Positions 48,227-64,000 of a stretch of 64,000 nt of DNA are shown piece after piece (position 1 is the stretch's first letter; every line of letters starts with the position of its first letter). The notes under the pieces were generated by a model. That model searched no databases, had not been told where the DNA came from, and saw only the letters and a program-made list of their open reading frames with translations. A program made the position numbers and the translations under genes. The stretch spans positions 868,001 to 932,000 of the forward strand of contig JAHHDT010000005.1 of NCBI GenBank assembly GCA_019739225.1. The letters are read 5' to 3'. This DNA comes from Aquamicrobium sp. Its GTDB lineage: Bacteria > Pseudomonadota > Alphaproteobacteria > Rhizobiales > Rhizobiaceae.

Positions 48227-48702
48227 AGGCTGCATATCTGCCGAAGCCATTGCGGCACTCTTGGGCGGTGCTGTCGAGGCACTCATTGATCGTTGGAGCC
48301 AGATTGATCAGTGTCCGCAGAAGCGGCGCTTCCAATGGTGTGGGTCACGACAAACGCGCGATGGGCTCTTGCCTGCGCCGACCGGGTGACGTGCTGCAAG
48401 AGATGAGCGGTCGCGAAATCATCGTCTACTTCGATTGAACAATGTTGCACCCTGCAGCACGCGATACATCATTGCTTGCAGCGTCCTCACGGGAGAATGC
48501 TCTTGCAGGCCAATTTCTGCAAATATTTCAATCAGATAAAATGGTGCTGCGAGAGAGGATTGAAATCGAGCCGGAGCCAATAAAATCAATAGGTTACGAA
48601 GCGTTTTGTAACATTGTGACGGACTGAAAAACGGGCGCGCAAGGGCGGTTTCTGGAACCTTGGCGTGCACCTTCTGGAACATCGTCACGCGTTGTCGATG
48701 GA

Positions 48703-49314
48703 TCAAACGAAGGGCGGAGCTTTGAGCCGGGCATCGACTTCGTATGCAAGCTCATACAAAACCTCGTAAACCGCGTTCTCTTGCTTCAGGTAGTCCTCAT
48801 ATGTGGCATCCACCGCCTGCCCGTGCGCGATCCCATTTCGTTTACCCACAAGTGCTTTTAGCAGTATTCGGTTCTTCTCGATTGAAGCGCATTTTATGTC
48901 CGCAAGGGTTAAAAGGTCTTCTAGAACGCCGGGCCATAAGTTTGATCTCGTATCAACCTCTGGAAAGTTCGGCTTTTGCGCTCCGGTCGTCGCGGCAAAG
49001 GTCTCCAGCATTTGAAGAAAGTCGGAGGCCGGCAAGCTACGTATGCGCTTCAGTTCAACAAATAAAGCATACTCTTTCGTTTTGGGCGGCAATAATTGAC
49101 ACGATGCAACCGTTCGCGCCGCTCGCTCGAAGAACAATGTTAGGCAGAATTTGGCATAACCCTCGTAGTGAGCATACAGCAGACTCCAAGCGGCACGGGC
49201 AAGAACACCGTGTTGCTTCGCAGTTACATCCTTCCGCTGGAGAAAGACCTTCAACAACGCGAGTTCTGTCTCCCTCCAACCAAGATCGGCTGTGAGTTCG
49301 TCAATCGCTTCCAT
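48703..49314 (-). CDS. HEPN-domain protein (MAE_28990/MAE_18760-like)
   Basis: All-helical; 'LVGKRNGIAHGQAV' fits the HEPN Rx4-6H motif; 'LLYAHYEGYAKFCLTLFF' resembles MAE_28990-type N-termini; start overlaps the upstream DUF262 gene. Confidence 0.8.
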   Translation of the reverse strand: MEAIDELTADLGWRETELALLKVFLQRKDVTAKQHGVLARAAWSLLYAHYEGYAKFCLTLFFERAARTVASCQLLPPKTKEYALFVELKRIRSLPASDFLQMLETFAATTGAQKPNFPEVDTRSNLWPGVLEDLLTLADIKCASIEKNRILLKALVGKRNGIAHGQAVDATYEDYLKQENAVYEVLYELAYEVDARLKAPPFV

Positions 49315-50395
49315 TAGCGAGCGCCAAAAGATGATTTTTCACCACGGCAATACGGCTATTAAATTTCTGGATGGAGTTTGCTCCCGGTCCCGTGGAATTC
49401 ACGAATTCCTCCGAAGCAAACGCCGCCATCAACCGAGCCCGTAAAGTCGCACCCTCTATGCCGGAAATGGCATCAAACTCGTCGGTAATCGCTCCTACGA
49501 CTGCCTCAAAATATGCTGGGGCAAGTCGTCCAGTGGGCTCGCCATGAGAATTGTAACGAGAAAAAGCCCCGTCCCCGAAGGTCTCTGATATCAAACCAAA
49601 CACCTTTCGAAATAATACATCCTCGGAATCAATATCAAATTCCTTATTTCGTAAAAGGATATCCTCCATATAGTTGTTGAGCCATTCTTCAATGTTTCCT
49701 TTGAATCCTTCACGATAATTCTTTACTGCAAAGAACCGCAATACGAGCTCTTCGTCTGCTCGCATATCTTTGTTGATCGCCGGAAGCCGAGCGATCGCCC
49801 CCTCGAATTCGTCTATCTTTGCCCAATTTTGAAGAGCAGAATAAAATACTTCACCTCCGTCAATCATTCGTGAAGAGCAGTTTCTTATTTCCTGGGCGGA
49901 AAGCAGGGAGCCGCCTGTATTAAGGCGTTTAAACATCTCATATTTAACAAATTGATCTCCGGATTTCTTAATGATGATAGCGCGAATAGGAGTCCGCTTG
50001 ATTTTAAGCTTCAGAGAGGTTGATAAATCATCAAATTTCACCCCGTTAAGGGTCTTAAGGATATCGCACCCTTCTAAAACTAGTTCCGGTTGTTCGATCG
50101 CGGTGTGATCAAGAAATTGGAGGACCGAGCTTGTTCGCTGCAAACCGTCTATAAGTTCGAGAACATTGTCTTCATTCTCGACAAGAAAAATAGGCGGGAT
50201 CGGCAGTCGAAGTATGACCGACTCGATCAAGCGCGATCGCTGCTCGTTGCTCCAGCGGAAAAGCCGCTGATATTCCGGACGGATGATTATCTCTTTGTCG
50301 CGGTGAAGATTAAGAAGTTCGCCAAATGAAAAATCGACGGCATCCGTCGAGATTTCACTGTCAAGCGTAGACTCATCAAGCATTGGATTCTCCAT
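49301..50395 (-). CDS. DUF262 domain-containing protein
   Basis: 'IIRPEYQRLFRWSNEQRSRLIESVILRLPIPPIFLVENEDNVLELIDGLQRTSSVLQFL' is the DUF262 (ParB-like) signature; internal ATG (50395) preferred. Confidence 0.88.
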   Translation of the reverse strand: MENPMLDESTLDSEISTDAVDFSFGELLNLHRDKEIIIRPEYQRLFRWSNEQRSRLIESVILRLPIPPIFLVENEDNVLELIDGLQRTSSVLQFLDHTAIEQPELVLEGCDILKTLNGVKFDDLSTSLKLKIKRTPIRAIIIKKSGDQFVKYEMFKRLNTGGSLLSAQEIRNCSSRMIDGGEVFYSALQNWAKIDEFEGAIARLPAINKDMRADEELVLRFFAVKNYREGFKGNIEEWLNNYMEDILLRNKEFDIDSEDVLFRKVFGLISETFGDGAFSRYNSHGEPTGRLAPAYFEAVVGAITDEFDAISGIEGATLRARLMAAFASEEFVNSTGPGANSIQKFNSRIAVVKNHLLALANGSD

Positions 50396-50481
50396 CGTTG
50401 CCGGGAACATATCCTGCGGGGTTTGTCCGAGCAATGACGCGACAAGCCCCGCCCGCTCCCGGTGCGGGAGGGGACAGGAGT

Positions 50482-51135
50482 TTATGGCAAGAAGTCGAGG
50501 ACGAGCGCTATGAGCTTCTTGATGAGCTGGCTGGTCGCCTCGTCTCTCGCCTTCTTGGCGAACCATGCGAGCGAAGGCAGCAACAGACGCCGGATCAGTC
50601 CCGCGTCGGCTTGGTCCGCCTGAAGGAGTCGATTTCCTGCCTCTAACTCGGCGAGCCGCTGGCTTACCTCTGCACCGCCCTCGGCAATTAGTTCGTTATC
50701 TCCTTTAAGTTCTCGAATTCGTTCCCGAAGCGCTTCATCCAATTGTTTGAAAGCCTCGGACGAACGATCGATCGTGATTGGTGCGGCTTCCACGATGGCG
50801 GTCGCGTCCACATGAAATGGGCCTCTTTCCTCGGCTTCATCCATGAGTTCATAGATGTCCGAGCCCCGCTCGTTGGCAGCCGTTTCGGCAGCGCGCAGGC
50901 CGCTGCCTGTAAGGTGGTGAGCGTCCCCATGAGTTCCGAGAAGAACGTCACCAATCAGCCGCTCCCGTGCTAGCTCTCGCACCGCCTCGGGAATCCAGCT
51001 ATTTGGGAAACGCCCGTCGATGGTTTTTGCAACGTCATTCACCAAGAAATCTGTATCAAGATCGCCCTCCACCGCTACTGCAATGGCAACTAGCAACTCG
51101 CTTTTGAAGTCTGTGTAAGAAAGCCGTTCGACCAT
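50482..51135 (-). CDS. Hypothetical protein, C-terminal helical/amphipathic segment
   Basis: ORF with start MVERLSYTDFKSELL; no recognised domain. Confidence 0.6.
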   Translation of the reverse strand: MVERLSYTDFKSELLVAIAVAVEGDLDTDFLVNDVAKTIDGRFPNSWIPEAVRELARERLIGDVLLGTHGDAHHLTGSGLRAAETAANERGSDIYELMDEAEERGPFHVDATAIVEAAPITIDRSSEAFKQLDEALRERIRELKGDNELIAEGGAEVSQRLAELEAGNRLLQADQADAGLIRRLLLPSLAWFAKKARDEATSQLIKKLIALVLDFLP

Positions 51136-51273
51136 CGAATCCCCCTTGGCCTCGCTAAACTTTAGCAGGTAATCGATCAGGTCAACCGGCGATGATGCGA
51201 TAAGGGAATAGCCCGCCGGGTAGACTCGGCGAGCTTCTGTCATGCTGCCGGTGATCGGTGGCATCAAGGCGCG

Positions 51274-51852
51274 TCAGGGCCAAGCCGGCCAATCGAGCAA
51301 AATTGCCAAATAGTGGTAGTATAGAAGAAGTGCACCGCCGAAGCCGGGAATGATGGTAACGGCAAGAATGACAAACCAAGCGCGCCCAAACCATAGTTGA
51401 GCGACCTTTGCTTCGGTTTGAGTTTTTTCCAGTTCCGTAAAGAAGTCGCCCGGAGACTTGTTTCCGGAAATTAGCTTTGTCATTTTTGATACATGAAACG
51501 ATCCATGGATCATCTTTGCCAACTCCCACCCTACGAAGAACATGAGAGAAAGTCCCACCAGCAGCGCTACGGTAAGGCTGGCCGTTTCGGTAAGATGGTC
51601 CTTTGTGAAGGACCAGATGCCGAAGATGCCAGCGTAGCCGGCAAGCATAAGAACGTTGGTGTAGGCGGTGCCGCGTTCATAGCCGGCCGAAGTTACATCT
51701 ATGAGAACCTTCGTATGAGCCTCTTGCATCTGCTTGGCCAAGCGCGCCTGCTGCTCTTGCGCCATCTGCTGAACAGCTTGTTCCAGCCCCGATATGCGCT
51801 TCTCGTTCTTTTCGAACCGCTCCCCGATTTGCCGCACGTCCGCTCTCCCCAA
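51274..51852 (-). CDS. Hypothetical coiled-coil membrane protein
   Basis: N-terminal 'GERFEKNEKRISGLEQAVQQMAQEQQARLAKQMQEAHTK' then three hydrophobic segments (YTNVLMLAGYAGIFGIW, ASLTVALLVGLSLMFFVGW, WFVILAVTIIPGFGGALLLYYHYLAIL). Confidence 0.65.
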   Translation of the reverse strand: MGRADVRQIGERFEKNEKRISGLEQAVQQMAQEQQARLAKQMQEAHTKVLIDVTSAGYERGTAYTNVLMLAGYAGIFGIWSFTKDHLTETASLTVALLVGLSLMFFVGWELAKMIHGSFHVSKMTKLISGNKSPGDFFTELEKTQTEAKVAQLWFGRAWFVILAVTIIPGFGGALLLYYHYLAILLDWPAWP

Positions 51853-51939: not shown

Positions 51940-52137
51940 TCAAATCTGTGACCATTCAACTGTGTCGTCGTGGTCGGTCCACGCCAAATGCTTGTCCTTG
52001 AATGCCTGTAAACCGGGATCAAGCGTGATCGCATCCGCGATGCGGCGGCGAAGCCCGTCGGCGTCGATGGTGCCTTGCCGGTAATCGTCAACAGCTTTGG
52101 CAAATGGGGCGGGCATATCCTTCGGCAGCGGCATCAC
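51940..52137 (-). CDS. Small hypothetical protein
   Basis: 65-aa ORF overlapping the next small ORF by 4 nt. Confidence 0.5.
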   Translation of the reverse strand: MMPLPKDMPAPFAKAVDDYRQGTIDADGLRRRIADAITLDPGLQAFKDKHLAWTDHDDTVEWSQI

Positions 52138-52319
52138 GCAGCCCTCGCGTTGTCATTGGCCTGAAGCTCCCCGCGCATGCTTTCCGGCCACACGTCTGCG
52201 ACCATGCAAAGGGCTTCGCTCACCTGTGCGCTACGGTCGCCGGTGATCGGTTCGGGCTCGATGGCGGCAAGCGCCTCAACAAGCCGGGTGAAGGTGTCAT
52301 CGGAAAGAAAAGCAGTCAT
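52134..52319 (-). CDS. Small hypothetical protein
   Basis: 61-aa ORF, overlapping start/stop with 51940-52137. Confidence 0.5.
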   Translation of the reverse strand: MTAFLSDDTFTRLVEALAAIEPEPITGDRSAQVSEALCMVADVWPESMRGELQANDNARAA

Positions 52320-52465
52320 GTGCGGGACGTCTCCAAAGCGGTGTTGCCTGAGTGGCAGAAGCTTTGTGAGTCAATTCGCGAATCCTGTCTAGTGGATAAT
52401 TTGAGAAAAACCGAACAAAATCAGATAGTAAGTAGATATTTACTTACATCTCTCCAAGAAAAAAA

Positions 52466-52490
52466 CCCGCCGGTAGTTAGGACCGGCGGG
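52466..52490 (-). terminator. Rho-independent terminator for the minus-strand phage operon
   Basis: CCCGCCGGT-agttagg-ACCGGCGGG perfect 9-bp stem with an A-tract on the low-coordinate side (U-tract on the minus strand). Confidence 0.75.
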
Positions 52491-53166
52491 TATCATCAAA
52501 GAAGGAGAGTTGCCGGCTTGGGAGAGCCGACACCTTTATTATAGCAGAATCGCCGGACGGATGCATAGAAATAGTAAGAAATAATTCCTAGATTGTCGTT
52601 CGGTGCCTAACGCTCGCTTCGCTCGCCTGCGCGGCCCTTCGGGCCTTGCCCGCGCTTCGCGCGAACCGTTCAAAGAAGGAAGGAAGAACGAAGTTAGTAG
52701 GGAATGTCAGGGGTAACTAACTAATTGCGGAAATGAGCTATCCCCCCCCTGTAGATCGATGACGGATAGACAGGCAGAAACCCGCCTATGATGTCGCCGA
52801 TCTACAAGAGGGGAAATTTCGTTGGACTTGCGTCTAACGAGAGTAGGAGCCACTAGCGCTAATCAAGCGCGGAAGGCGGTCAGCATTGACCTTCCATAAA
52901 GCCGAATCCGAATCTGACGGTAATCACTTCCGGCGAGCACCTAACTCAACCGGCCGGAAGTATCAGGTTGTCCCTGCGCTTGGCGCTTTCGACATTGCCT
53001 GAATCCTTAAGGCGAACTTTCGAAGCAGAGAGCTTCCGGCGCGACCATACCTTTCGCGGCATGATCTCCGTTTTGCGCTTGCGGACGCTGGATGACGGTC
53101 TCGTTTTCCGTCAATTACCTGTAACCAGAAGGTCGCGGCAGGGGCGAACCTGCCCCGCAAGTATAG

Positions 53167-53193
53167 CCCGCCAAGCTGATTAAGCTTGGCGGG
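53167..53193. repeat. Perfect inverted repeat just downstream of the tape-measure gene
   Basis: CCCGCCAAGCT-GATTA-AGCTTGGCGGG, 11-bp stem; no clear U-tract. Confidence 0.7.
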
Positions 53194-53263
53194 AAATCGA
53201 ATGTCTCTCTAAACACTAGAATAGCAAGAATGCGGAAGCGTTGCATAGAAAATGCACGCCACG

Positions 53264-55282
53264 TCACCGGGCGCGCGTATTGAGATAGTTGCCCGGCCGG
53301 GTCTGGCGTCTGATTTCGTCCATCACCACGCCGCGCATGGTCGCTTCCATGTTCTTTGCAGTGCGGCGGGCAAGGTCTTCATTCTGTTCGGGCGTGCCGG
53401 CGCTGCCGTTCACCGTGACGGGTGCGGAAATCGAAATCACCTGTCCACCGACGCCGGCAGCGAGCGGCGCGCTACCGCCGCCGACAAGACCACCACCGGC
53501 AAACCGGGGAAGCGAGCCGCTGTTGATGGCCTCAAGTATTGCCCGGTGCTTGCGGGTGGCAGCGGCGTTCACCATGAACTCGCCATCGCTGGCAAGCACC
53601 GGAATCCTGTCATCGGTCGGTCCGCCCGGTCCGTAGATCATGCCACCCCCGGCACGGCGAAGGACGGGCGTGTTCTGGCTAGCGTTGATCTGCCCGCCAC
53701 CTGCGAAGCCGAAAAGCTTGCCGAGCCATCCGAAGATGCCACCGAAACCACCGCCGGCATTCTGCACCTCAAACATCGCCGTAAGCAGTTCGTCAAAGAT
53801 GCGATCGCTCAAGCGGCCGATGGCGTTGCCGAGCGCCTGAAGGGGCGGCACGCCGTTCATGATGTCCGCGCGGAAGCCGCCGATGAAGTCGCGCGCGGTA
53901 TCGGCCATGCCCTGCAAGCGCTGCTGCTGCGCATCAAGCGCCGCGTTTTCCTGATGGATGGCTTCATTCAGGGCAATGATGCGCTGGCGCTCATCGTCGG
54001 TAGCGGCCGCACCGGCTCGCCGGGAAGCTTCGGCGGCACGGCGCTCGGCATCCGTCGCACCGACAAGCCGCAATTCTTCCTCAAGCTCGGCAATGAGGTC
54101 CGCCACGGCCTGCCGTTCGCGTTCGATCTTCGACGCCGAAGCATCGCGTGAAGCACCACCGGAAGACGGGGGCGGGGTGTAAGGCGGTGGCGTGAAGGAA
54201 GTGCCGGGCGGTGTTGCGGCGTTCTCGCGTGCTTTCCGCCGAGCTTCGATCACGCGCACAATCTGCGCTTCGGTTTCCAGAAGGGCGGCGCGTTCTTCCT
54301 CCAGATATTGAATGTCGCCGGTCACGTCGCGGGCGAACATGCCGCCCTGCGATTGCTCGCCTTTCAGCTTAAGTATCTTGTTTTCGAGGTCCATCTGTTG
54401 CTTGCCGATGGTGGCAAGCTGGGCATCAAGGCTGGCCGCTTGCTGGTCCTCGAAATTGCGGAAGCTATCGATGAACTGTTGCAGCGCGCTCGCGGCGTTG
54501 ACGATTGCCCCTTTCAGCGCCGTGCCGACAGTCTGCGACACAATTTGAAACTGCCGATCTACCTCGGCGGCGCGCGTGATCACGTCATCGGACAGGATAT
54601 TGCCGAGCCGGTGCGCTTCATCGATGGTGCGGCGGATGCCGGCCGCGCCTTGGTCCAGAAGCTCAACGAAACGCTCGCCAGCCGAACCGCCGAACAACTC
54701 ATCGGAAATCCGTATCTGCGCTGCCTTATCGAACTTACCCAGCCGGTCGATGATTTCGAGTAGCAGCGTTGACGGGTCGGCAAGCTTCCGTTTCAGTTCT
54801 TCGGCCGTATAGCCGAGCCGCTCGAAAGCTTCGGCCGCGCTCCCCTTGCCTGTCAGTGCGAACTCGTCGCCGCGTAGGGATAGCTCTTTCAGGCCATCAA
54901 TCATCGCGTCCACAGGGATGCGAGCCTGTTCGGCAACCGTAGCCCATTCCTGAAAGACGCGGTTTGACACGCCAGCACGCTTCGCTTCGTCGCCGATCTG
55001 GGCAATGCCTTTCGCAATCTGTCCGAATTGCCCGACGATGCCGGCCACGCCACCGGCTGCAATGCCGCCTAAAAGCCCAACGCCGAAGTTCTTGAAGACA
55101 CCACCGACACGGGCAGCGGCTGCGCCCATGGTTTTCTCGAGGCGGTCGCCGGATAGCTTTGCGCGCTTTTCGATCTGGCCGAAGCCGCCGCCGAAAACCT
55201 TGGAAGCTTTAGCCATGTTCTTTTCGAGGTCGCGCGTGCGCGCCTCAACGCTGACTATCAGGCGTTCAATATCGGCGTTCAT
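53264..55282 (-). CDS. Phage tail tape-measure-like protein
   Basis: 'SGDRLEKTMGAAAARVGGVFKNFGVGLLGGIAAGGVAGIVGQFGQIAKGIAQIGDEAKRAGVSNRVFQEWATVAEQA' and hydrophobic Gly-rich central/C-terminal segments. Confidence 0.88.
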   Translation of the reverse strand: MNADIERLIVSVEARTRDLEKNMAKASKVFGGGFGQIEKRAKLSGDRLEKTMGAAAARVGGVFKNFGVGLLGGIAAGGVAGIVGQFGQIAKGIAQIGDEAKRAGVSNRVFQEWATVAEQARIPVDAMIDGLKELSLRGDEFALTGKGSAAEAFERLGYTAEELKRKLADPSTLLLEIIDRLGKFDKAAQIRISDELFGGSAGERFVELLDQGAAGIRRTIDEAHRLGNILSDDVITRAAEVDRQFQIVSQTVGTALKGAIVNAASALQQFIDSFRNFEDQQAASLDAQLATIGKQQMDLENKILKLKGEQSQGGMFARDVTGDIQYLEEERAALLETEAQIVRVIEARRKARENAATPPGTSFTPPPYTPPPSSGGASRDASASKIERERQAVADLIAELEEELRLVGATDAERRAAEASRRAGAAATDDERQRIIALNEAIHQENAALDAQQQRLQGMADTARDFIGGFRADIMNGVPPLQALGNAIGRLSDRIFDELLTAMFEVQNAGGGFGGIFGWLGKLFGFAGGGQINASQNTPVLRRAGGGMIYGPGGPTDDRIPVLASDGEFMVNAAATRKHRAILEAINSGSLPRFAGGGLVGGGSAPLAAGVGGQVISISAPVTVNGSAGTPEQNEDLARRTAKNMEATMRGVVMDEIRRQTRPGNYLNTRAR

Positions 55283-56916
55283 GCTGCATCCTTATTGTTC
55301 AAGAGCGCGTCCAGTTCGTCGGGGTCCATTTCGAGGAATGAACGGGTGTTGTCGTTGAGGGCGGCGAAGCGCACGGCCATAAGGGTAGCTACGGCGCCAT
55401 CGATCTTGTCGCGGGACTTCGACTTGTCGAATTTGCGATTGCCGGCCGCATCGCGCACCACGGCCACGTTGTCGAAGTTCCAACGAAGGATAGGGTTGCC
55501 GGCGTGATAGAGTTTGCCGGTGATGATGGCGCGCTCCACCTCGTCACAGGCCGGCGACATGGAAATGAAGCCCTGTCGGAAATCGACCACCGGCAAGTCA
55601 TCATTCATTAGGTTGCGCTGAAGCTGTTGCGCCCGCCACGGATCGAAAGCGATCTGGCGCACGTCATACTCCGCGTGAAGCTTTCTGATTTCGGCTTCAA
55701 CGAAGTCGTAATCGACAGCAGCGCCGGGCGTTGCAGTAATCAACCCGGCCTTTTCCCATTCCTGATAATTCACGCCTTCAACACGCGACTTCTTCGCCAG
55801 CGCGTCGGCTGGGCAGAAGAACCATGGCCGGACGATGTAACCGCCGTCATCGGTCGGCCACGCGGCAACGATTGCGGTTAGGTCCGACACTTCGGACAAA
55901 TCAACGCCTAGGAAACACGGCTTCCCTTTCAGCGCTTCGAAATCGACAGGGACCGATCCGCATCGGTCATAGGTCACCATGTCCACGAAGGGGCTGGAAC
56001 TCTGGTTCTGCCAAACCCCTAGGTAAAGCTGAAGCAGGGTTTCGCGCTCGATAAGCGAATAGCCGGCCTTGATCTTCCGTTCCTGAAGCGCCTTCAGCGA
56101 CGGATAGCCGCTCGACAGGCCGGGAAGAAGCTTGTGCCAGATGGCTTCGTCCTTCCAATCGACATCGGGGCCACACTCGAAAATGACCGGCAGCACATGA
56201 GGGTCAACGATCTGTCCAAGCTGAATTCGCTTCGCGGCGGACACCTCTTTATATGCTAGCGATTCCTGACCACGGCCGGCCGTGGTCAACACCACCATGA
56301 GCGTATCATTGGTTTTGTCGAGCGCCGACGACAGGACGCGCCAAAGTTCACGGTGCTTTTCCGTGGTCCAAGCGTGTAGCTCATCGGCGATCACTACCGA
56401 AGGCGTCGAACCGTGATGGCCGAGACCTTCCGACGAAATCGCCTCATAGCGGGTGCGCGTCTTGCTGTTCACAATCTGGTTCTTGTAGTCGCGGACGCGC
56501 GCCGTCTTGTCGTAACGACGATCCTGCGACACGATCAACGCGACTTCCTCGAAAAGCTCGCGCGCCTGCTTCCGGGCATAAGCCGCCGACTGGATCAGGC
56601 CACCGGCGATCTTCTCGGGACCGAAAGCGCACAGAAGGACGATGGCGGCGGCGAGCGCCGTCTTTCGCGAACCACGACCAAGCTGAATCACCACCTTCTT
56701 GATGATGCGTGTGCCATCGGGGTTTCGGGGTCCGAAGATCGCGCGGATGATGCGTTCGTGCCATTCGTCCAACTGGAAAGGATGACCGAGTGCGGGGTTC
56801 TTCGGATGGCGGTTCTTTCGAAGCCATTGCACGGCGCGCTCGCCATAGCCGAAAGGATCGGGGATCGGCGAGCCGTCGAAAAGCCATTCGGGATAGATGA
56901 CAAGGGTGTTGGTCAC
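55279..56916 (-). CDS. Phage terminase large subunit
   Basis: 'VVIQLGRGSRKTALAAAIVLLC', 'SVVIADELHAWTTEKHRELWRVL', 'PCFLGVDLSEVSDLTAIV'. Confidence 0.94.
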   Translation of the reverse strand: MTNTLVIYPEWLFDGSPIPDPFGYGERAVQWLRKNRHPKNPALGHPFQLDEWHERIIRAIFGPRNPDGTRIIKKVVIQLGRGSRKTALAAAIVLLCAFGPEKIAGGLIQSAAYARKQARELFEEVALIVSQDRRYDKTARVRDYKNQIVNSKTRTRYEAISSEGLGHHGSTPSVVIADELHAWTTEKHRELWRVLSSALDKTNDTLMVVLTTAGRGQESLAYKEVSAAKRIQLGQIVDPHVLPVIFECGPDVDWKDEAIWHKLLPGLSSGYPSLKALQERKIKAGYSLIERETLLQLYLGVWQNQSSSPFVDMVTYDRCGSVPVDFEALKGKPCFLGVDLSEVSDLTAIVAAWPTDDGGYIVRPWFFCPADALAKKSRVEGVNYQEWEKAGLITATPGAAVDYDFVEAEIRKLHAEYDVRQIAFDPWRAQQLQRNLMNDDLPVVDFRQGFISMSPACDEVERAIITGKLYHAGNPILRWNFDNVAVVRDAAGNRKFDKSKSRDKIDGAVATLMAVRFAALNDNTRSFLEMDPDELDALLNNKDAA

Positions 56917-57302
56917 AGGAAATCCTCGTCATCGTCGCCGGCCGCCATCACGGCACGGGACCGGGCAGCAGGAGTCAGGCCAAGCTCACCGGCCGCGCGA
57001 AGATGTTGCTGCATCATCTGCACTAGCGCGGTGCTGGCGGGATTGCGCTTGCCGTTCGGCAGCACGTTGCCGTTGGCCTGCACGTCACGAGCGGCCTGTC
57101 TCATCATGGCGACGGCGATCACGTAATTCTCAAAGGCGGCAAGGTCGGCGACGGTAAGCACCTTGCGCTCATTTACGATGATCGGCGCGATCTTGCGCCA
57201 TTCCGCCTTGGCGTCCTTCGACAGATACGAAGGTGCCTTCGGGACGGCCGTCACCGGCGAGGTGCCGGTGACGATGGTCGCGGGCTTTAATCCACGAGTC
57301 AC
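56913..57302 (-). CDS. Phage terminase small subunit (P27 family-like)
   Basis: 'PSYLSKDAKAEWRKIAPIIVNERKVLTVADLAAFENYVIAVAMMRQA'. Confidence 0.88.
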   Translation of the reverse strand: MTRGLKPATIVTGTSPVTAVPKAPSYLSKDAKAEWRKIAPIIVNERKVLTVADLAAFENYVIAVAMMRQAARDVQANGNVLPNGKRNPASTALVQMMQQHLRAAGELGLTPAARSRAVMAAGDDDEDFL

Positions 57303-57613
57303 GACACGGCCACCGCGCGAAGCTCAAGGCCACGTCGCCGGCCGATCTCGGCGATTTCCTTGATATTGTAGGCGGTGCCTTCGTAGGTGATCCGGTCGGC
57401 AGTGGTGATGCCGGCGAGGTAGCGAACGCGGAAAATCACCGTGCCGGTTTCAGCCTCGCCGAAGCCAGTCAGGAACTCGCTTGCCGACTGCTGCACGATC
57501 TCGGCGCGCACCGAGGCAAGATTCGTCCAGGCGGTGACGACGCCACCGGACGGCGTGACGGTTTCCGTCTTGCGCTCGATGGCAATGACACGATCAAGCT
57601 TCCCGGCGCGCAT
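57299..57613 (-). CDS. Phage head closure / head-tail joining protein
   Basis: 'MRAGKLDRVIAIERKTETVTPSGGVVTAWTNLASVRAEIV' typical of this family. Confidence 0.82.
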   Translation of the reverse strand: MRAGKLDRVIAIERKTETVTPSGGVVTAWTNLASVRAEIVQQSASEFLTGFGEAETGTVIFRVRYLAGITTADRITYEGTAYNIKEIAEIGRRRGLELRAVAVS

Positions 57614-57614
57614 G

Positions 57615-58028
57615 TCAGATGCTCCACCGGATGACGGCTTCAACCGACAGAACGCCGTGACCATAGGCCGGGTCGGGGTCACGCGGCCAAACCGTGCGCG
57701 TGTGCTTGAAGTCATCGAACGCAAAGCCGACGCCATCGGGCCAATCGATAAGCGTTTGAGCCACGGCAGCGCCGATAGCTTTGGCACGGTCAAGCCCGTC
57801 TTCAACCGCCCACACATGCAGGTCGAGGAACACGCCGGCCACATACTGCCCATTGGCAGCGCGGCCGTGCATGACGGTCGTGCCGTTCGGGATCATGATC
57901 GCCGGGAGGTTTTCGGGGCGGCTGGAACCGGAACGGATATTCGAGGGATCGACAAGCGCCACCACGGCCGGCGCGGAAACCAGCGCCGTGCGGATGGCAG
58001 TCTGAAGGGCAAGGGTCGGCTCAATCAT
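57615..58028 (-). CDS. DUF3168 family tail completion protein
   Basis: 'ALQTAIRTALVSAPAVVALV...FLDLHVWAVEDGLDRAKAIGAAVAQTL'. Confidence 0.8.
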   Translation of the reverse strand: MIEPTLALQTAIRTALVSAPAVVALVDPSNIRSGSSRPENLPAIMIPNGTTVMHGRAANGQYVAGVFLDLHVWAVEDGLDRAKAIGAAVAQTLIDWPDGVGFAFDDFKHTRTVWPRDPDPAYGHGVLSVEAVIRWSI

Positions 58029-58453
58029 GGCTTGGCCCGATGCTGGCGAACGGCTTTCGCGATGGCGCGTTTCGTCCGGTTCTTCAGGCGCTTTTGCAGC
58101 ATCCGCACCGAAGGCCAGAAGAACGGTTGCGCCTCGTGCTCGCTGGTCCCGTATTCCTGAAGGTGCGGGTAGCGCACGTCGCTGTTGCCGGCCGTCACGA
58201 TGGCCTCAAGCTCGCCGGCAACACGCGAACCGCCCGGCTGCGAATAGGGCGGCGTCGTGCCACCGGGCGGCGTCACGGCGATGCTGGATTTCAAGTCGGG
58301 CGCGTCGGTGGCCGGATCGTCCGGTGCAAGGTGGCGCATGGTGGCGGCAAGTTCTTCCGCGTTCTGCACAAGCACCGGCTGCACGGCTTCGCGCACGTCC
58401 TGCGGAATAGCCATGAGCCGCCGCTGAAGCCGCTTGATCTGGTCAGAAGCCAT
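58025..58453 (-). CDS. HK97 gp10-family phage protein
   Basis: 'MRHLAPDDPATDAPDLKSSI...YPHLQEYGTSEHEAQPFFWPSVR'. Confidence 0.85.
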   Translation of the reverse strand: MASDQIKRLQRRLMAIPQDVREAVQPVLVQNAEELAATMRHLAPDDPATDAPDLKSSIAVTPPGGTTPPYSQPGGSRVAGELEAIVTAGNSDVRYPHLQEYGTSEHEAQPFFWPSVRMLQKRLKNRTKRAIAKAVRQHRAKP

Positions 58454-58769
58454 CTTCGGCAGCCTCATCAACGGTGACGCCGAAGCGGGAAACGCGGTAG
58501 CTTTCGGCGATGGACACGACGCCAAACGGGGCCATCTGGCCGGCGATGCCGTAGGCGACGGCCTCGCGTTGCTCGTAATAGAACGCGACCAGCATCAACA
58601 TGGCGCGTTTCAGGTCGGCCGGGACGGGGTCGAAGTCGGCGAGCGGCTTGCCGATGTAATTGCCGAGCCACGTTTCGGCGGCGTCGATGAAAAGCGTCAA
58701 AAGCTCGTCATCGTCATTGCCGGCGATGTTCGAATAGGACTTGGCGAGCGACAGGGTGACGGTGCTCAT
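58443..58769 (-). CDS. Phage head-tail connector protein (gp6-like)
   Basis: 'DELLTLFIDAAETWLGNYIGKPLADF...LKRAMLMLVAFYYEQREAV'. Confidence 0.85.
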   Translation of the reverse strand: MSTVTLSLAKSYSNIAGNDDDELLTLFIDAAETWLGNYIGKPLADFDPVPADLKRAMLMLVAFYYEQREAVAYGIAGQMAPFGVVSIAESYRVSRFGVTVDEAAEDGF

Positions 58770-59023
58770 TCCGTGGTGGCCTTCTGTGAAAAAGTTATTT
58801 CGGGAATCTCTTGCGCGGTGCTCCCCGCGCCGGTCCCCTTCAAAGCCGCAAAGTTCGAGACCACCCCCCGCCTGCGCTGGGTCGGGGTCGGCGTGTTCAT
58901 AGCTTGCTCAAGCGTCCAGCCGCGCCGAAGGCGGTTGCGTAACGTTCCTTCCGGGACGCCGCACATGCCGGCAAGCTCATTGATCGTGTGACGGGTGTCA
59001 CGGAACACAAGCAGCGTGGTCAT
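58766..59023 (-). CDS. Small HTH-like protein
   Basis: 'HTINELAGMCGVPEGTLRNRLRRGWTLEQAMNTP' resembles phage HTH/AsiA-type DNA-binding segments. Confidence 0.6.
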   Translation of the reverse strand: MTTLLVFRDTRHTINELAGMCGVPEGTLRNRLRRGWTLEQAMNTPTPTQRRRGVVSNFAALKGTGAGSTAQEIPEITFSQKATTE

Positions 59024-59367
59024 CGGCGGCGCTCCATGCGCTGCTTGGTGCTGTTGTGGCAGCGGGTGCAAAGCGACTGCCAGTTGCGGCGATTCCAGAA
59101 CAAGGCGAGGTCGCGTCGATGCGGAATGATATGGTCAACGGTTGTGGCCGGTGCGCCGCATCCGGGCATCACGCAATAGGGATGCGCGGCGAGGTAATCG
59201 CGCCGAGCCTTGCGCCATTCGTAACCGTATAGGCGTTGTGATGCCGAGCCGCGTTGTGCGTCATGGCGGCGATTGCGTTCGCGAGTGGCATTGATCTGGC
59301 AAGGGCAGCGCTCGCCATGCGGTATCTTGCGCATGCCGCAAGCACAAAGATGCGGCGGGCGGGTCAT
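59020..59367 (-). CDS. HNH endonuclease
   Basis: 'HPYCVMPGCGAPATTVDHIIPHRRDLALFWNRRNWQSLCTRCHNSTKQR'. Confidence 0.93.
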   Translation of the reverse strand: MTRPPHLCACGMRKIPHGERCPCQINATRERNRRHDAQRGSASQRLYGYEWRKARRDYLAAHPYCVMPGCGAPATTVDHIIPHRRDLALFWNRRNWQSLCTRCHNSTKQRMERRR

Positions 59368-59960
59368 GACAGCGCCCTTAGTCTGGCGATGCCCTCGCGA
59401 ACTTCCGCGTCGGAAGGCAGGTCTTGCGGATCATATTCGCCATCCTGCTTTTCCTCGCCGCCGCCATAGATGGCATACAGCTTGGCGACGTGGCCTCGAT
59501 GGGCGGTGATGATCTGCGGAACGGTCGCGTTGAGAGCGTCGTCGGCGGACCAGCCAAGCCAGCCGGTGGCAATGGCGAAAAGTTCTTCCAAGCTCTTGCG
59601 GATCGACAGCGGCTTGCCGGCGCGTTCGCGCTTCTCGGCATGGCTGTCGTCGCCATCTTGCGAAAGGCCATAGCAGTCCGCCAGAAGATCAATGAGCGGT
59701 TCGGCAAGGTGCTGAAGGTCGCGGACGCCGCTTTCGGTCACGCGCGCCGTAAGCAGGCGTCGCGCGGCTGGCCCGTTGTCGCTGCACTCGGCGATCATGT
59801 CGCCGATGATGATGGTGTTGCATTCTTCGATGCCGCGCAAAAGGTTAGTAAGACCATGGCGGCACTCAAGGCGGTAAGCGGCTCGCAAGGACGGGCGAAG
59901 GTGCACGGCGTTGCCGCCATGCACAATCACTATGTCGTCGGATGCGAGCCGCGTTGTCAT
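59364..59960 (-). CDS. Hypothetical phage protein, possible tail-assembly-type
   Basis: Position in the operon; 'IRKSLEELFAIATGWLGWSADDALNATVPQIITAHRGH'. Confidence 0.5.
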   Translation of the reverse strand: MTTRLASDDIVIVHGGNAVHLRPSLRAAYRLECRHGLTNLLRGIEECNTIIIGDMIAECSDNGPAARRLLTARVTESGVRDLQHLAEPLIDLLADCYGLSQDGDDSHAEKRERAGKPLSIRKSLEELFAIATGWLGWSADDALNATVPQIITAHRGHVAKLYAIYGGGEEKQDGEYDPQDLPSDAEVREGIARLRALS

Positions 59961-59965
59961 GGTCG

Positions 59966-61522
59966 TTACGCTGCGATCTTCAGCTTGATCAGGGCTTCGC
60001 CCATCACAACCTTGCCGCCGACGCGACGACGGCCACCGAACACAACGATGTCCTCGCCGAAGCGGGTGTTGTAGTCGGCGAACGGCTCAAACGAGACGCG
60101 ATCCGTGATCAGGTAGCCGCGATTGAAGTCGCCGAAGATGATCGGCGTAGCGTTTTCGGCCACGTCCGGCATGTAGTCGCATTCATAGACCGGCTTGCCG
60201 AGCAGAAGACCGGGCTGGCCTGCCTGAAGACCGGACTGCCAAAGCAGATTGCCATCGCTGTCACGAAGGCCGCGCACAACGCGCATGGTCTTGCGGTTCA
60301 TCAGCCAAGCGCCATTGAGCGCATATGCCGACTTCACGCCATAGAACACGTCGAGCAAGGCGTCGGTGCCGATTGCGGCCGCTTCGATGTCCTCGACTTC
60401 GGCAGAAGTCAGAACGCCTTCCGCCTGCGTGGTGCCGTTGCCGGTAACAAACCACTCGTTTTCGAGAGTGCCGAACTCGGCGACGATATGCGACTGAAGG
60501 AAGTCGACCAGATTGACGGCGCTGTCCTCCAACGCGGTGCGCGATACCGGCGTCATGACGCCCATGGCAAAATTCTTCACGTCGATCTGTTCGAAGGTCG
60601 GTTCGGAAGACGGCTTTGCCTGCACTTCCGTCACGATGCCGGGCTGCACGCGGTTCACCAAACGCGGAATCTGAAGCAGGGCGCTGCCTACGGTAACGAC
60701 GCGCGCAAGCTGACGAACCGGCGAGGCAGGACGCAGCTTTTCGAGGATGGTTGCCGAAAAATCGTCCTGCACCAGATTGCCGGCGGTGCCGGGCGTGGCG
60801 ACGGTGAGCGTCTTCTTTTCGAGAAGGGACGTGCGAAGCTCGGCTTCGAACGCCTTCATATTGTCGTTTTCGCCGGCCGGATGATTGTTGTTCGCAGCAA
60901 CAGGCCGTTTGCTCTTGGCTTCCAGCTTGTCGGTTGCGGCCTTCAGGGCGGCAACTTCCGCCTTCAGGTCGGCGAGTGCCTTGGTCTCAATAACCGGATC
61001 GGCGGTCTTCACTTCCGGCGCGGCCGGATCGTTCTTCACTTCAGGTTCCATGCTGTTTTCCTTGGGAGAGATTGCCGCGCCATCTGCGGACTTCACGTTG
61101 AGAACGCGCGCGCCCGGATGGCTCGGATTCGCGACGATGGAGATTTCGCAGACGCGCAAGGCGTAGATGTCGCGACCACCACCGGGCCGGGACTTGGTTT
61201 CGGCGGGCCTGAAGCCGATGGACAGGCCGGACACGCGGCCGGAACGAAGGCGGGTGTGCACTTCGCGGGCGCGGGGAACGGATTCGAGGTAGAGCCGGCC
61301 CTTTGCTTCAAGGCCGGCATCTGTTTCCGTGACCGCTTCCCAATGGCCGATAGCCGTTCCGGCATCGTGCTCGAAAAGGATCGGCATTGCCGGGGCGATG
61401 CTGAAAGCGCCCTTGTGGATCACGTCACCGGCGCTATCAGGGGAACCAAAGGGCCAAGCAAGCCCGGTGATGGTGCCGGCATCGTCAACGTTGAAGCTGG
61501 CTTTGATTTCGAGCTTATCCAC
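59966..61522 (-). CDS. HK97-family prohead protease fused to phage major capsid protein
   Basis: N-term protease 'GLAWPFGSPDSAGDVIHKGAF...LRSGRVSGLSIGFRP'; coiled-coil delta-like region; capsid 'SPVRQLARVVTVGSALLQIPRLVNRVQPGIVTEVQAKPSSEPTFEQI...GDFNRGYLITDRVSFEPFADYNTR'. Confidence 0.93.
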   Translation of the reverse strand: MDKLEIKASFNVDDAGTITGLAWPFGSPDSAGDVIHKGAFSIAPAMPILFEHDAGTAIGHWEAVTETDAGLEAKGRLYLESVPRAREVHTRLRSGRVSGLSIGFRPAETKSRPGGGRDIYALRVCEISIVANPSHPGARVLNVKSADGAAISPKENSMEPEVKNDPAAPEVKTADPVIETKALADLKAEVAALKAATDKLEAKSKRPVAANNNHPAGENDNMKAFEAELRTSLLEKKTLTVATPGTAGNLVQDDFSATILEKLRPASPVRQLARVVTVGSALLQIPRLVNRVQPGIVTEVQAKPSSEPTFEQIDVKNFAMGVMTPVSRTALEDSAVNLVDFLQSHIVAEFGTLENEWFVTGNGTTQAEGVLTSAEVEDIEAAAIGTDALLDVFYGVKSAYALNGAWLMNRKTMRVVRGLRDSDGNLLWQSGLQAGQPGLLLGKPVYECDYMPDVAENATPIIFGDFNRGYLITDRVSFEPFADYNTRFGEDIVVFGGRRRVGGKVVMGEALIKLKIAA

Positions 61523-61940
61523 GGTCGGCCTCGCTGATAGCTGCGGCGAGGTCGCCGGTTGCGGCGGCTTCCGTGGTCGCTGTCACGCTGGCGGCATCGA
61601 TCTTGCTGCCGTCGATCTGGCCGGGTTCGTCCTGGCTGTCGGCGGGCGCGCCGAACCAAATGACTTCAAGGATGGACAGCGCCACCGGCAGGGTTTCGGC
61701 AAGCGGGCGCTGCTGCACATAGACCGCGACCAGCTTGAAGGCTTCGGCCGGTTCCATGCCGCCGCCGACCAAGGCGAGCCGGATCGTTTCCGAAATATCG
61801 CCGATGCTGAAGGACAAGGAACGGATACGCTGAAACAGAAGGCCGATGCCGACGCCGGTCTTGCGCTGAAGTTCTTCGATTAGGGGAAAGGGCAGGGCGA
61901 AGGTGTGTTCGCTATCGCCGAGAAAGGCGGTGTGCTTCAT
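61515..61940 (-). CDS. GTA-gp10-like / gene transfer agent family protein
   Basis: 'LPFPLIEELQRKTGVGIGLLFQRIRSLSFSIGDISETIRLALVGGGMEPAEAFKLV'. Confidence 0.7.
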   Translation of the reverse strand: MKHTAFLGDSEHTFALPFPLIEELQRKTGVGIGLLFQRIRSLSFSIGDISETIRLALVGGGMEPAEAFKLVAVYVQQRPLAETLPVALSILEVIWFGAPADSQDEPGQIDGSKIDAASVTATTEAAATGDLAAAISEADRG

Positions 61941-62158
61941 TCGCCTTCGGCCTCGCGCCGGCCGAACTCTGTCGGCTCACTATAGTGGGGCGGCGTGTCG
62001 GGCGTGACGACGACAGGGTCGGGTAGACCTTCCATGAACTCGGCGAGCACGTCGCCGATGGCATTGCGAAGGGCTGGCTTGAAGCGTTCTTCAATGGCGC
62101 GCTCGAATTCCGCGATACGGGCATCAAATACGATGGTGAAGCGTTCGCTTTGGGTCAT
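61937..62158 (-). CDS. Small hypothetical phage protein
   Basis: 73-aa ORF overlapping both neighbours by 4 nt. Confidence 0.55.
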   Translation of the reverse strand: MTQSERFTIVFDARIAEFERAIEERFKPALRNAIGDVLAEFMEGLPDPVVVTPDTPPHYSEPTEFGRREAEGE

Positions 62159-63357
62159 TTGGAATCCTTCGCCTTCGCCGTCGCCGTCGCCGGCCCGGTC
62201 GTCGTGGTCGTGGTGTAGGGGTTCGCCAGTTCGTCGCCGCCTTCGATAGCCGGCAGGTTCATTGCGGCGCGCACTTCGTTCGGCGTCATGGCGCGCATGG
62301 CGACCAACTTGCCGAAGATTTCGGCGCGGCCGGCTGCATCGGCGCGCTGAAGGTCGTCAATGACAAACTCGAAATAGAAGTCGTCTTGCTCGTCTTCAGT
62401 CAGAAGCACCGTGGCATAGGCGTCCTGCCAACGGTCCAGCCAAGGGCGAAGGCAAAGCTGAAGAAAGCTCGCCGCCATCTGTTCGGCGTTGCCCCACGTG
62501 GCCCGGTCTAGCTGATAAAGCATCGACGGCGGCACGCCGAAGACGCGCGCAATCTCGTTGATCTGTTCGACGCGGTTTTCGAGGAACTGCGCATCGGTCG
62601 AGGTCATAGTCGGCTGGTCGTATTTCCAGCCGGCATCAAGAATGAGCGGATCGCCACTGGCATTGGACTGCCACGCGCGCCACTGCTTGAGGATGCTCGC
62701 AACGGTCTTTGCCCCGGCTTCGCTGCCGGAGGGCTTCTCATTCGAGATGATACCGGAAGGTCGAGCGCCGGAAGCGAAGAACTGTTCGGCGTGGCGTTCA
62801 AGCACCATGGCAAGGCCGATGGCCCTTTTGCCGGCATGGACCGGCGAGAAACCACCGAAGGCCGGGACATAGAGCACGTCACGATAGGAAAGCCGAACCT
62901 GCTTCCGGCCCTTCACGTTCACAACGTAATAGGGCTCGCCATCGTCTTCGATGCGGCGCTGCACCGTGCCGGGTGCAAGGCGGTGTAGCTCAAGCGGCCT
63001 GTCATCACTGGCGCGCACGATCTGCGCATAGCCAGCGCCATGCAGAAGCGCATCGGCAGTCAGGTCAACGCGAAGCTGGCCGGCGCTGGTCCAAGGGTTC
63101 GCGCGGCCATGCACGAGACGGAACGCGGAGTGATCCTTCGCCGCTTCCTTGCTGTCGCCTTCATCCGCATAGAGCTTGGACGGCAGGGAACCGACAGTCT
63201 CGGCGATCAGGCGCACGGCATGAAGGACGGCCGGCACATAGTTCGCGGTAATACTGTTGACGACAGCGCCCGAAAGCGTCGGCGTTACACCGAAGATTTC
63301 GGCAATGGCTGGGTCGGAAAGCGGCACGGATTTCTGTTCCATGCCGCCGCCGAACAT
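62155..63357 (-). CDS. HK97-family phage portal protein
   Basis: 'AVLHAVRLIAETVGSLPSKLY', 'AEQFFASGARPSGIISNEKP', 'RVFGVPPSMLYQLDRATWGNAEQMAASFLQLCLRPWLDRWQDA'. ORF-track start 63384 is TTG; ATGs at 63357 and 63342. Confidence 0.93.
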   Translation of the reverse strand: MFGGGMEQKSVPLSDPAIAEIFGVTPTLSGAVVNSITANYVPAVLHAVRLIAETVGSLPSKLYADEGDSKEAAKDHSAFRLVHGRANPWTSAGQLRVDLTADALLHGAGYAQIVRASDDRPLELHRLAPGTVQRRIEDDGEPYYVVNVKGRKQVRLSYRDVLYVPAFGGFSPVHAGKRAIGLAMVLERHAEQFFASGARPSGIISNEKPSGSEAGAKTVASILKQWRAWQSNASGDPLILDAGWKYDQPTMTSTDAQFLENRVEQINEIARVFGVPPSMLYQLDRATWGNAEQMAASFLQLCLRPWLDRWQDAYATVLLTEDEQDDFYFEFVIDDLQRADAAGRAEIFGKLVAMRAMTPNEVRAAMNLPAIEGGDELANPYTTTTTTGPATATAKAKDSK

Positions 63358-63396
63358 ACGCTTTACAGGACTCAAGAAACGCAACGCGACACAACA

Positions 63397-63413
63397 CCTA
63401 AGTTCAACTTAGG
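63397..63413. promoter_or_regulatory. Perfect palindrome upstream of the portal gene (candidate operator)
   Basis: CCTAAGTT-C-AACTTAGG, 17 bp, in the int-portal intergenic region. Confidence 0.5.
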
Positions 63414-63505
63414 AATATTGTCTCACATGCCGAATCCGGTGTGAATCCCGAAAATGAATAAATTCCTACAAAAATAGGAAAATAATCATCTCGTGTTGTT
63501 TGTCA

Positions 63506-64000
63506 TTAGGCAGCTTCAGCCGCTGCCGTATCCAAATTGTAGTGCGGAAACCGTTCGATTGCTGCTTTCCGAGCCTTGAGCGTCACGTCGCCGTAGTTGT
63601 CGCCGGCCGTCTTTGATGCGTGGCCTTGAATGGCGTCTAGTGTTCTGTCGGAAATCCCTTGCTCCTGCCCGACTGTCTTGAAGCGGTGCCGCCAGCCATG
63701 GCTAGGCGCAACACCTTCAGGGATGACGCCGAGGCCTTGAAGCCATACGCTGATACGGCCGGTGACGGTCTTTGCAGCAAGCGCCGGATTTTTGCCGCGT
63801 CGGTCTGGATAGAACAACGGGCCATCCGCCGAAGCGTCCACGAAGTCCATGAAGCCCATTTCGATCAACTGCGGATGCAAAGGCACGTCGCGGTAGTCGC
63901 CAGCCTTCACCGTGCCGGCATCAGGCCGAATGCGCATGACGTGCGTCTCGCCTTCCTTGCGGAAGTCCTGTTTCCGAAGCTGCGTGATTTCTGCGATGCG
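63506..64000 (-). CDS. Site-specific tyrosine recombinase/integrase, C-terminal part; 5' end outside the window
   Basis: Frame stays open to 64000 (RIAEITQLRKQDFRKEGETHVMRIRPDAG); 'APSHGWRHRFKTVGQEQGISDRTLDAIQGHASKTAGDNYGD' has the HxxR...H...Y arrangement. Confidence 0.88.
   Translation of the reverse strand, partial: RIAEITQLRKQDFRKEGETHVMRIRPDAGTVKAGDYRDVPLHPQLIEMGFMDFVDASADGPLFYPDRRGKNPALAAKTVTGRISVWLQGLGVIPEGVAPSHGWRHRFKTVGQEQGISDRTLDAIQGHASKTAGDNYGDVTLKARKAAIERFPHYNLDTAAAEAA

Follow-up and report, generated by a model that had tools for sequence, protein, structure and literature searches.

An att-bounded element in a tRNA-Thr gene

The stretch of Aquamicrobium sp. DNA analysed here (the window, 64,000 nucleotides; G000:C5:868001-932000) comes from a host genome of 5.35 Mb, and near its 3' end lies a mobile element that carries virus head and packaging genes together with the gene for a tape measure protein (TMP). 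An initial annotation had placed this element at 52,134-64,000, but the att repeats and the full integrase gene set its extent at window positions 48,525-65,216. The left att copy (48525-48564) and the right att copy (65,177-65,216) form a 40-bp repeat with one mismatch, within which a 25-bp core is perfect (48540-48564 on the left; 65,192-65,216, equivalent to L003:3192-3216, on the right). The right copy covers the 3' end of a tRNA-Thr(GGT) gene (L003:3194-3268), and the left core is identical to that 3' end. A gene for a 531-amino-acid tyrosine integrase (63506-65101, equivalent to L003:1506-3101, minus strand; phrog_1, 4.8e-12), with only the C-terminal part of the protein encoded within the window, adjoins the tRNA gene at one side and the portal gene at the other. 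Three checks proposed with the initial annotation have now been made: flanking direct repeats are present; the sequence 3' of position 64,000 holds the rest of the integrase gene, the tRNA-Thr gene and then the chromosome, with genes including murA and hisD (names read from the sequence by eye), with no tail or lysis module; and the joined flanks form 2 kb that align unbroken, at 93% identity, to a genome of the same genus (G202) that has an exact empty site. The att repeat pair and this unbroken empty site show that the element is complete, that it is integrated in tRNA-Thr, and that 16,652 bp separate its att copies.

All genes of the element lie on the minus strand. Leftwards from the integrase come the portal gene (62155-63384; PF04860, 3e-87), a 73-amino-acid open reading frame (ORF) with no assigned function (61937-62158), a gp10-type chaperone gene, a fusion of prohead protease and major capsid protein of the HK97 type (59966-61522; PF04586, 1.9e-19; PF05065, 2.9e-63), a second chaperone-like gene termed u198, a packaging-associated HNH endonuclease gene (59020-59367; PF01844, 2.6e-08), and u101, whose small HTH-like product is related to one domain found in phage HNH proteins (58766-59071; phrog_3377, 4.7e-05). 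These are followed by the head-tail connector Ad1 (58443-58769; PF05135, 6.5e-14), a tail completion (neck) protein of the HK97-gp10 type (58025-58465; PF04883, 1e-05; phrog_5, 1.8e-16; TIGR01725 above cut-off), a tail terminator or gp17-like tail completion protein (57615-58028; PF11367, 7e-15; phrog_176 tail terminator, 1.6e-05), the head closure or head completion protein Hc1 (57299-57670; PF05521, 8e-23), the small terminase subunit TerS (56913-57302; PF05119, 2e-21; phrog_83, 1e-30), the large terminase subunit TerL (55279-56916; phrog_9, 1.8e-130; PF20441, 3e-42), the TMP, small ORFs, two accessory ORFs, and finally a DUF262 gene and a HEPN gene. The integrase, portal, protease-capsid fusion, connector, head closure protein, TerS, TerL and TMP had all been named in the initial annotation, and all are real, with matches far above chance. 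Judged from this gene set, the element seems to make virus heads of its own.

Tail genes and the tape measure protein

The element had initially been described as lacking recognisable tail genes other than the TMP. Pfam and PHROG searches bear this out for the tail tube, distal tail, hub, baseplate, fibre, lysis, repressor and replication genes, none of which was found in the element; the tail terminator and HK97-gp10-type genes described above and two chaperone genes had, however, been overlooked. The remaining ORFs gave no significant informative phage-family match even at a loose threshold, the gaps within the core are too short to fit a tail tube gene, and the cargo ORFs of the close relatives L113 and L045 hold no hidden tail genes. 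The tail tube, baseplate and lysis genes by which a complete prophage would be recognised are absent.

The first of the two chaperones is of the gene transfer agent (GTA)-gp10 type (61515-61940, minus strand; PF11836, 9e-22). Pfam PF11836 and phrog_8985 label this family "tail tube", and the protein was therefore considered as the missing tube, but it is better read as a chaperone for three reasons. The RcGTA virion tail consists of stopper, terminator, tube and distal tail proteins, and its tube is g9, not g10 (PMC7296036); in the GTA cluster of the host itself, the corresponding gene comes after a distinct tube gene; and relatives of the element carry it alongside a phrog_158 major tail protein. 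A PF11836-type gene also directly precedes the TMP gene in the complete phages L104, L107 and L108. The second protein, u198 (59364-59960, minus strand), matches phrog_7493 (6.5e-22), a family without an assigned function. Its homologue sits between the tail tube and TMP genes in phage phi2LM21 and in prophages L056 and L061, and in relatives of the element u198 co-occurs with a separate tail tube gene. Structures predicted from single sequences for both chaperone-like proteins were mostly helical, with pLDDT of about 40, and too weak for a fold search, and no relative of either protein was found among solved structures.

The TMP itself (53264-55282, minus strand; 672 amino acids) matches phrog_10574 over its whole length (3.5e-147). 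Across its body (approximately residues 54-520), it shares about 38-46% identity with the TMPs of siphophages with lambda-type heads, phi2LM21 among them; the element has no head gene in common with these phages. These phi2LM21-type rhizobial siphophages (MF614627; prophages L008, L056, L061 and L062) share with the element the TMP body and the u198-type chaperone, but they are complete, with lambda-type heads and their own tube, hub, fibre and lysis genes, and the N terminus of their TMP is not homologous. The first 48 residues of the element's TMP are instead common to nearly all related satellites and to HK97-headed phages. This N-terminal type occurs in 49 of 52 cases in which a homologous HK97-gp10 neck protein is encoded, versus 1 of the 18 without one (two of the 18 being truncated). 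The association (Spearman 0.80; Fisher p 2.5e-12) is between rows related by descent, and for this reason and because of the truncated rows the p value is only indicative. Where similarity in the TMP body is strong and the neck is of another kind, the N-terminal type is absent, and where body similarity is weak and the neck is the same, it is present. In these sequence comparisons, the N terminus of the TMP goes with the neck protein and not with the TMP body, and the HK97-gp10-type protein is the predicted docking partner of that N terminus. In phage 80alpha, residues 1-37 of the TMP form a sheet with the tail completion protein equivalent to HK97-gp10, and the TMP C termini bind Tal (PMC11661146). 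Taken together, the coupling of N terminus to neck and the contact seen in 80alpha explain in simple mechanical terms why a satellite would retain a TMP of its own.

In many respects the element resembles the capsid-forming phage-inducible chromosomal islands (cf-PICIs), of which EcCIEDL933 is an example. Both are integrated islands bounded by att sites, with an HK97-type capsid, protease, portal, connectors, HNH endonuclease and TerS/TerL, and both lack lysis genes and a complete tail. The element has each of the corresponding features: its own capsid, protease, portal and head-tail connectors, its own packaging module (HNH, TerS and TerL), and an integrase with att sites at a specific location, as seen in the 25-bp repeat, the full integrase gene and the empty site. 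It differs in carrying a TMP, two tail assembly chaperones and a tail terminator and in having neither AlpA nor primase; some of its relatives add a tail tube and a distal tail protein. The regulatory and replication module of cf-PICIs consists of AlpA and primase, and no regulatory or replication gene of this type was found in the element, whose integrase gene abuts the portal gene. The helper supplies the whole tail of a cf-PICI, and cf-PICIs carry no tail genes (PMC10690885); the element departs from this description, and the initial annotation had already flagged a TMP as unexpected in a classic cf-PICI. We therefore describe the element, which carries tail genes of its own and has no AlpA or primase, as a cf-PICI-like, TMP-carrying variant. 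The Streptomyces satellites MulchRoom and MiniFlayer likewise have their own capsid and packaging genes; the tail used by MulchRoom has the helper's length and MiniFlayer encodes a fibre, and unlike in the element, no homologues of tail components are reported for the MulchRoom type (PMC10690885).

The element could still follow the classic route and dock finished helper tails, with its TMP acting as an ejection or pilot protein, as an internal plug of the neck or as a decoy that poisons tail assembly by the helper. The description of cf-PICIs as takers of whole helper tails (PMC10690885) lends this idea some support, as does the observation that TMPs can be ejected together with DNA (PMC11661146). 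It leaves unexplained why the element retains tail assembly chaperones and a tail terminator, which are needed only for tail building, and why the body and C-terminal regions of its TMP are still homologous to phage TMPs, and we regard it as unlikely. Our searches of the literature found no description of TMP-carrying satellites in the Rhizobiales; the main cf-PICI papers lay outside these searches, and a prior description is possible.

Related elements across the Rhizobiales

Profiles built from the element's proteins were used to map 68 loci, and the gene order of the element recurs in more than 40 loci of the Rhizobiales. Confirmed members are present in about 22 of the 200 genomes in the family sample, and a TerL match at 1e-60 was obtained in 40 of the 398 genomes of the order sample. 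In Type I elements, the order is integrase, portal, chaperone, protease/capsid, variably a decoration gene and a tail tube gene, u198, HNH, connector, neck, terminator, closure, TerS, TerL, TMP, variably a gene for an HUH Rep protein, s61 and cargo. In Type II elements, the integrase is at the opposite end, the tube gene comes after HNH, and a distal tail protein (phrog_1302) sometimes follows the TMP. Type I elements without a tube gene number 19, including the one described here, and 10 have one. No lysis gene was seen in either type, nor, within the element, any of the profiled kinds of hub and NlpC gene. In locus L053, a fibre-like protein (phrog_21060; L053:5328-6857), the homologue of which adjoins the hub in prophage L062, is encoded after the TMP, and some satellites may thus bring a receptor-binding part of their own. 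Also present in the Rhizobiales are cf-PICI-like relatives, recognised by their TerL, that have no TMP, for example L086, L101 and L102; inspection by eye revealed genes resembling those for primase or helicase in two TMP-less TerL relatives.

The TMP is present in all Type I and Type II elements, including the Type I loci found by TerL, in a sample that was assembled via TMP or TerL and is biased on TMP presence in its TMP-found part. It is a family-wide feature and not a leftover. A tree of portal and capsid joins the element to L113 (83% identity), and in this tree the presence of the tube gene switches at least six times on supported branches. The position of TerL conflicts with this tree, and its sequence has most likely recombined; the TerL tree was set aside as a misleading guide to the history of the element.

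A narrow range of sizes accompanies this constant arrangement. The 33 elements that could be delimited by att repeats, all at tRNA genes except one at an unidentified site, measure 15,887-18,446 bp (mean, 17,505; standard deviation, 578). Because loci of 20 kb bias the sizes toward short elements, ten elements were re-examined in 40-60 kb, where they measured 16.8-18.1 kb. Size does not differ between elements with and without a tube gene (17.4 versus 17.5 kb), the range applies to either type, and a fixed head capacity would be the simplest reason for the narrow range. Relative to L113, dN/dS is 0.08 for the capsid and 0.15 for the portal, and for the TMP it is about 0.26 relative to L045 over 625 codons, all rough values with synonymous sites near saturation. 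On these estimates the TMP is under purifying selection.

These observations bear on the suggestion, made in the initial annotation alongside that of a head-autonomous satellite, that the element is a decayed prophage: an inert remnant of a once complete siphophage from which the genes for tube, tip, lysis and replication have gone. Signs of loss do exist. In many relatives, the gene directly after the TMP encodes an HUH Rep of the REP_ORF2-G2P kind that has HxH and YxxK motifs (L044:13353-14363, L045:7258-8190, L063:14690-15571 and others); this is a replication gene of the rolling-circle type within satellites that encode heads. At that position our element has a gene-free stretch of 0.94 kb (52320-53263), and no Rep remnant was detected when one was sought in this gap (52.3-53.3 kb). 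Clearly decayed relatives are also known (L046). However, the att pair and the integrase are intact and the empty site is exact, no core gene is frameshifted, and the gene set, its order and the size of about 17.5 kb are constant in dozens of species under purifying selection. The conserved size and order largely refute decay, which we consider highly improbable, and of the two initial suggestions the satellite is favoured because the arrangement is conserved across the order, size is narrow and selection is purifying. As a separate observation, locus L050 (G017:C2:104000-123999) has an integrase, protease-capsid, gp10-type chaperone, HK97-gp10 protein and TMP, with no terminase or portal detected there, and is a decayed or still more reduced element.

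Proposed particle assembly, and accessory genes

We consider it probable that the element is a complete, integrated capsid-forming satellite whose own TMP joins its own neck to a tail borrowed from a helper, and that this Rhizobiales family as a whole probably finishes its particles with parts of another phage's tail. In the proposed sequence of events, infection by a siphophage or its induction in the same cell would lead the integrase to excise the island, and the satellite's TerS, TerL and HNH endonuclease would package its genome of about 17 kb into small heads made of its own capsid protein. The TMP and chaperones would serve as the ruler for polymerisation of the helper's tube protein. 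The TMP C terminus would dock on the helper's tip and the N terminus on the satellite's HK97-gp10-type neck protein, so that the finished tail would fit the satellite head. Tails would then comprise the satellite's TMP, chaperones and terminator together with the tube and tip of the helper, which would also supply lysis and, in this copy, replication. Defence cargo occupies the end of the island. Replication of this copy is either helper-driven or absent, because neither an HUH Rep gene nor a remnant of one is present.

Several points weigh against this reading. No further TMP related to this one is present in the host genome, where the sole hub-type tail gene (PF13550) belongs to the GTA. This copy, being without the Rep gene of its relatives, may be mobilised poorly. 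There is a small chance that a tail tube gene has diverged beyond the reach of the profiles. The shared descent of the rows in the N-terminus comparison and the probable recombination of TerL belong here as well.

An alternative is that the tail parts come from the host's own GTA and not from an infecting phage. GTA clusters are common in the Rhizobiales, and this host has an RcGTA-like cluster elsewhere in its genome (L117; G000:C5:1452000-1471999) with a tube gene, a gp10-type chaperone gene and a 1297-amino-acid hub gene. GTAs of this type share with the element the gp10-type chaperone and HK97-type head genes, but they form no att-bounded mobile island, encode a full tail and have a short TMP. 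The TMP of the element is about three times the length of GTA g11 (PMC7296036), no other TMP-related match was found in the host, and the relatives of the element's TMP are phage TMPs. We give this source of tails very little credence. The element is also no GTA itself, a GTA being a fixed, non-mobile cluster without an integrase, whereas here there are an integrase, att repeats and an empty site.

If the element is a satellite that builds on borrowed tail parts, the boundary of borrowing might slide within the wider group, from the tip only (members with a tube gene) through tube and tip (this element) to the whole tail (relatives without a TMP), with the TMP setting tail length and linking the neck to foreign parts. 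We offer this extension only tentatively. According to published descriptions, cf-PICIs take tails only as a whole. A widespread family that keeps its TMP and often drops its tube would reveal how the heads of a satellite can evolve to be compatible with the tails of a foreign phage. It also allows a direct test of which end of the TMP fixes head specificity and of whether borrowed tails can have their length set by the satellite, and the narrow size of about 17.5 kb makes such elements easily recognised in genomes. Two different family members occupy different tRNA genes in each of two genomes (L096 and L089 in G343; L045 and L058 in G196).

Leftwards of the TMP, the gene-free stretch contains perfect hairpins at 52465-52491 and 53167-53193 and is possibly a replication origin or the site of transcription terminators; a search for RNA families found none in the element. 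The genes beyond it are again all on the minus strand. The small ORF s61 (52134-52319; 61 amino acids) is kept downstream of TMP/Rep in many relatives, and the next (51940-52137; 65 amino acids) has a homologue in the relative L063 (61%). One accessory ORF of 192 amino acids (51274-51852), probably a membrane protein from its sequence, has no significant family match, and another of 261 amino acids (50482-51267) has no Pfam, PHROG or NCBIfam match. The last two genes, which overlap (48703-50566), encode a DUF262/GmrSD_N protein resembling NsnA and PD-T4-2_A (49301-50566; PF03235, 6e-28; PADLOC NsnA, 3e-68) and its probable partner, a HEPN protein of the MAE_28990 type (48703-49314; PF18737, 1.5e-40). 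The same pair, 83% and 71-72% identical, also ends island L045 in another genus, which suggests that DUF262 and HEPN form a mobile two-gene defence unit.

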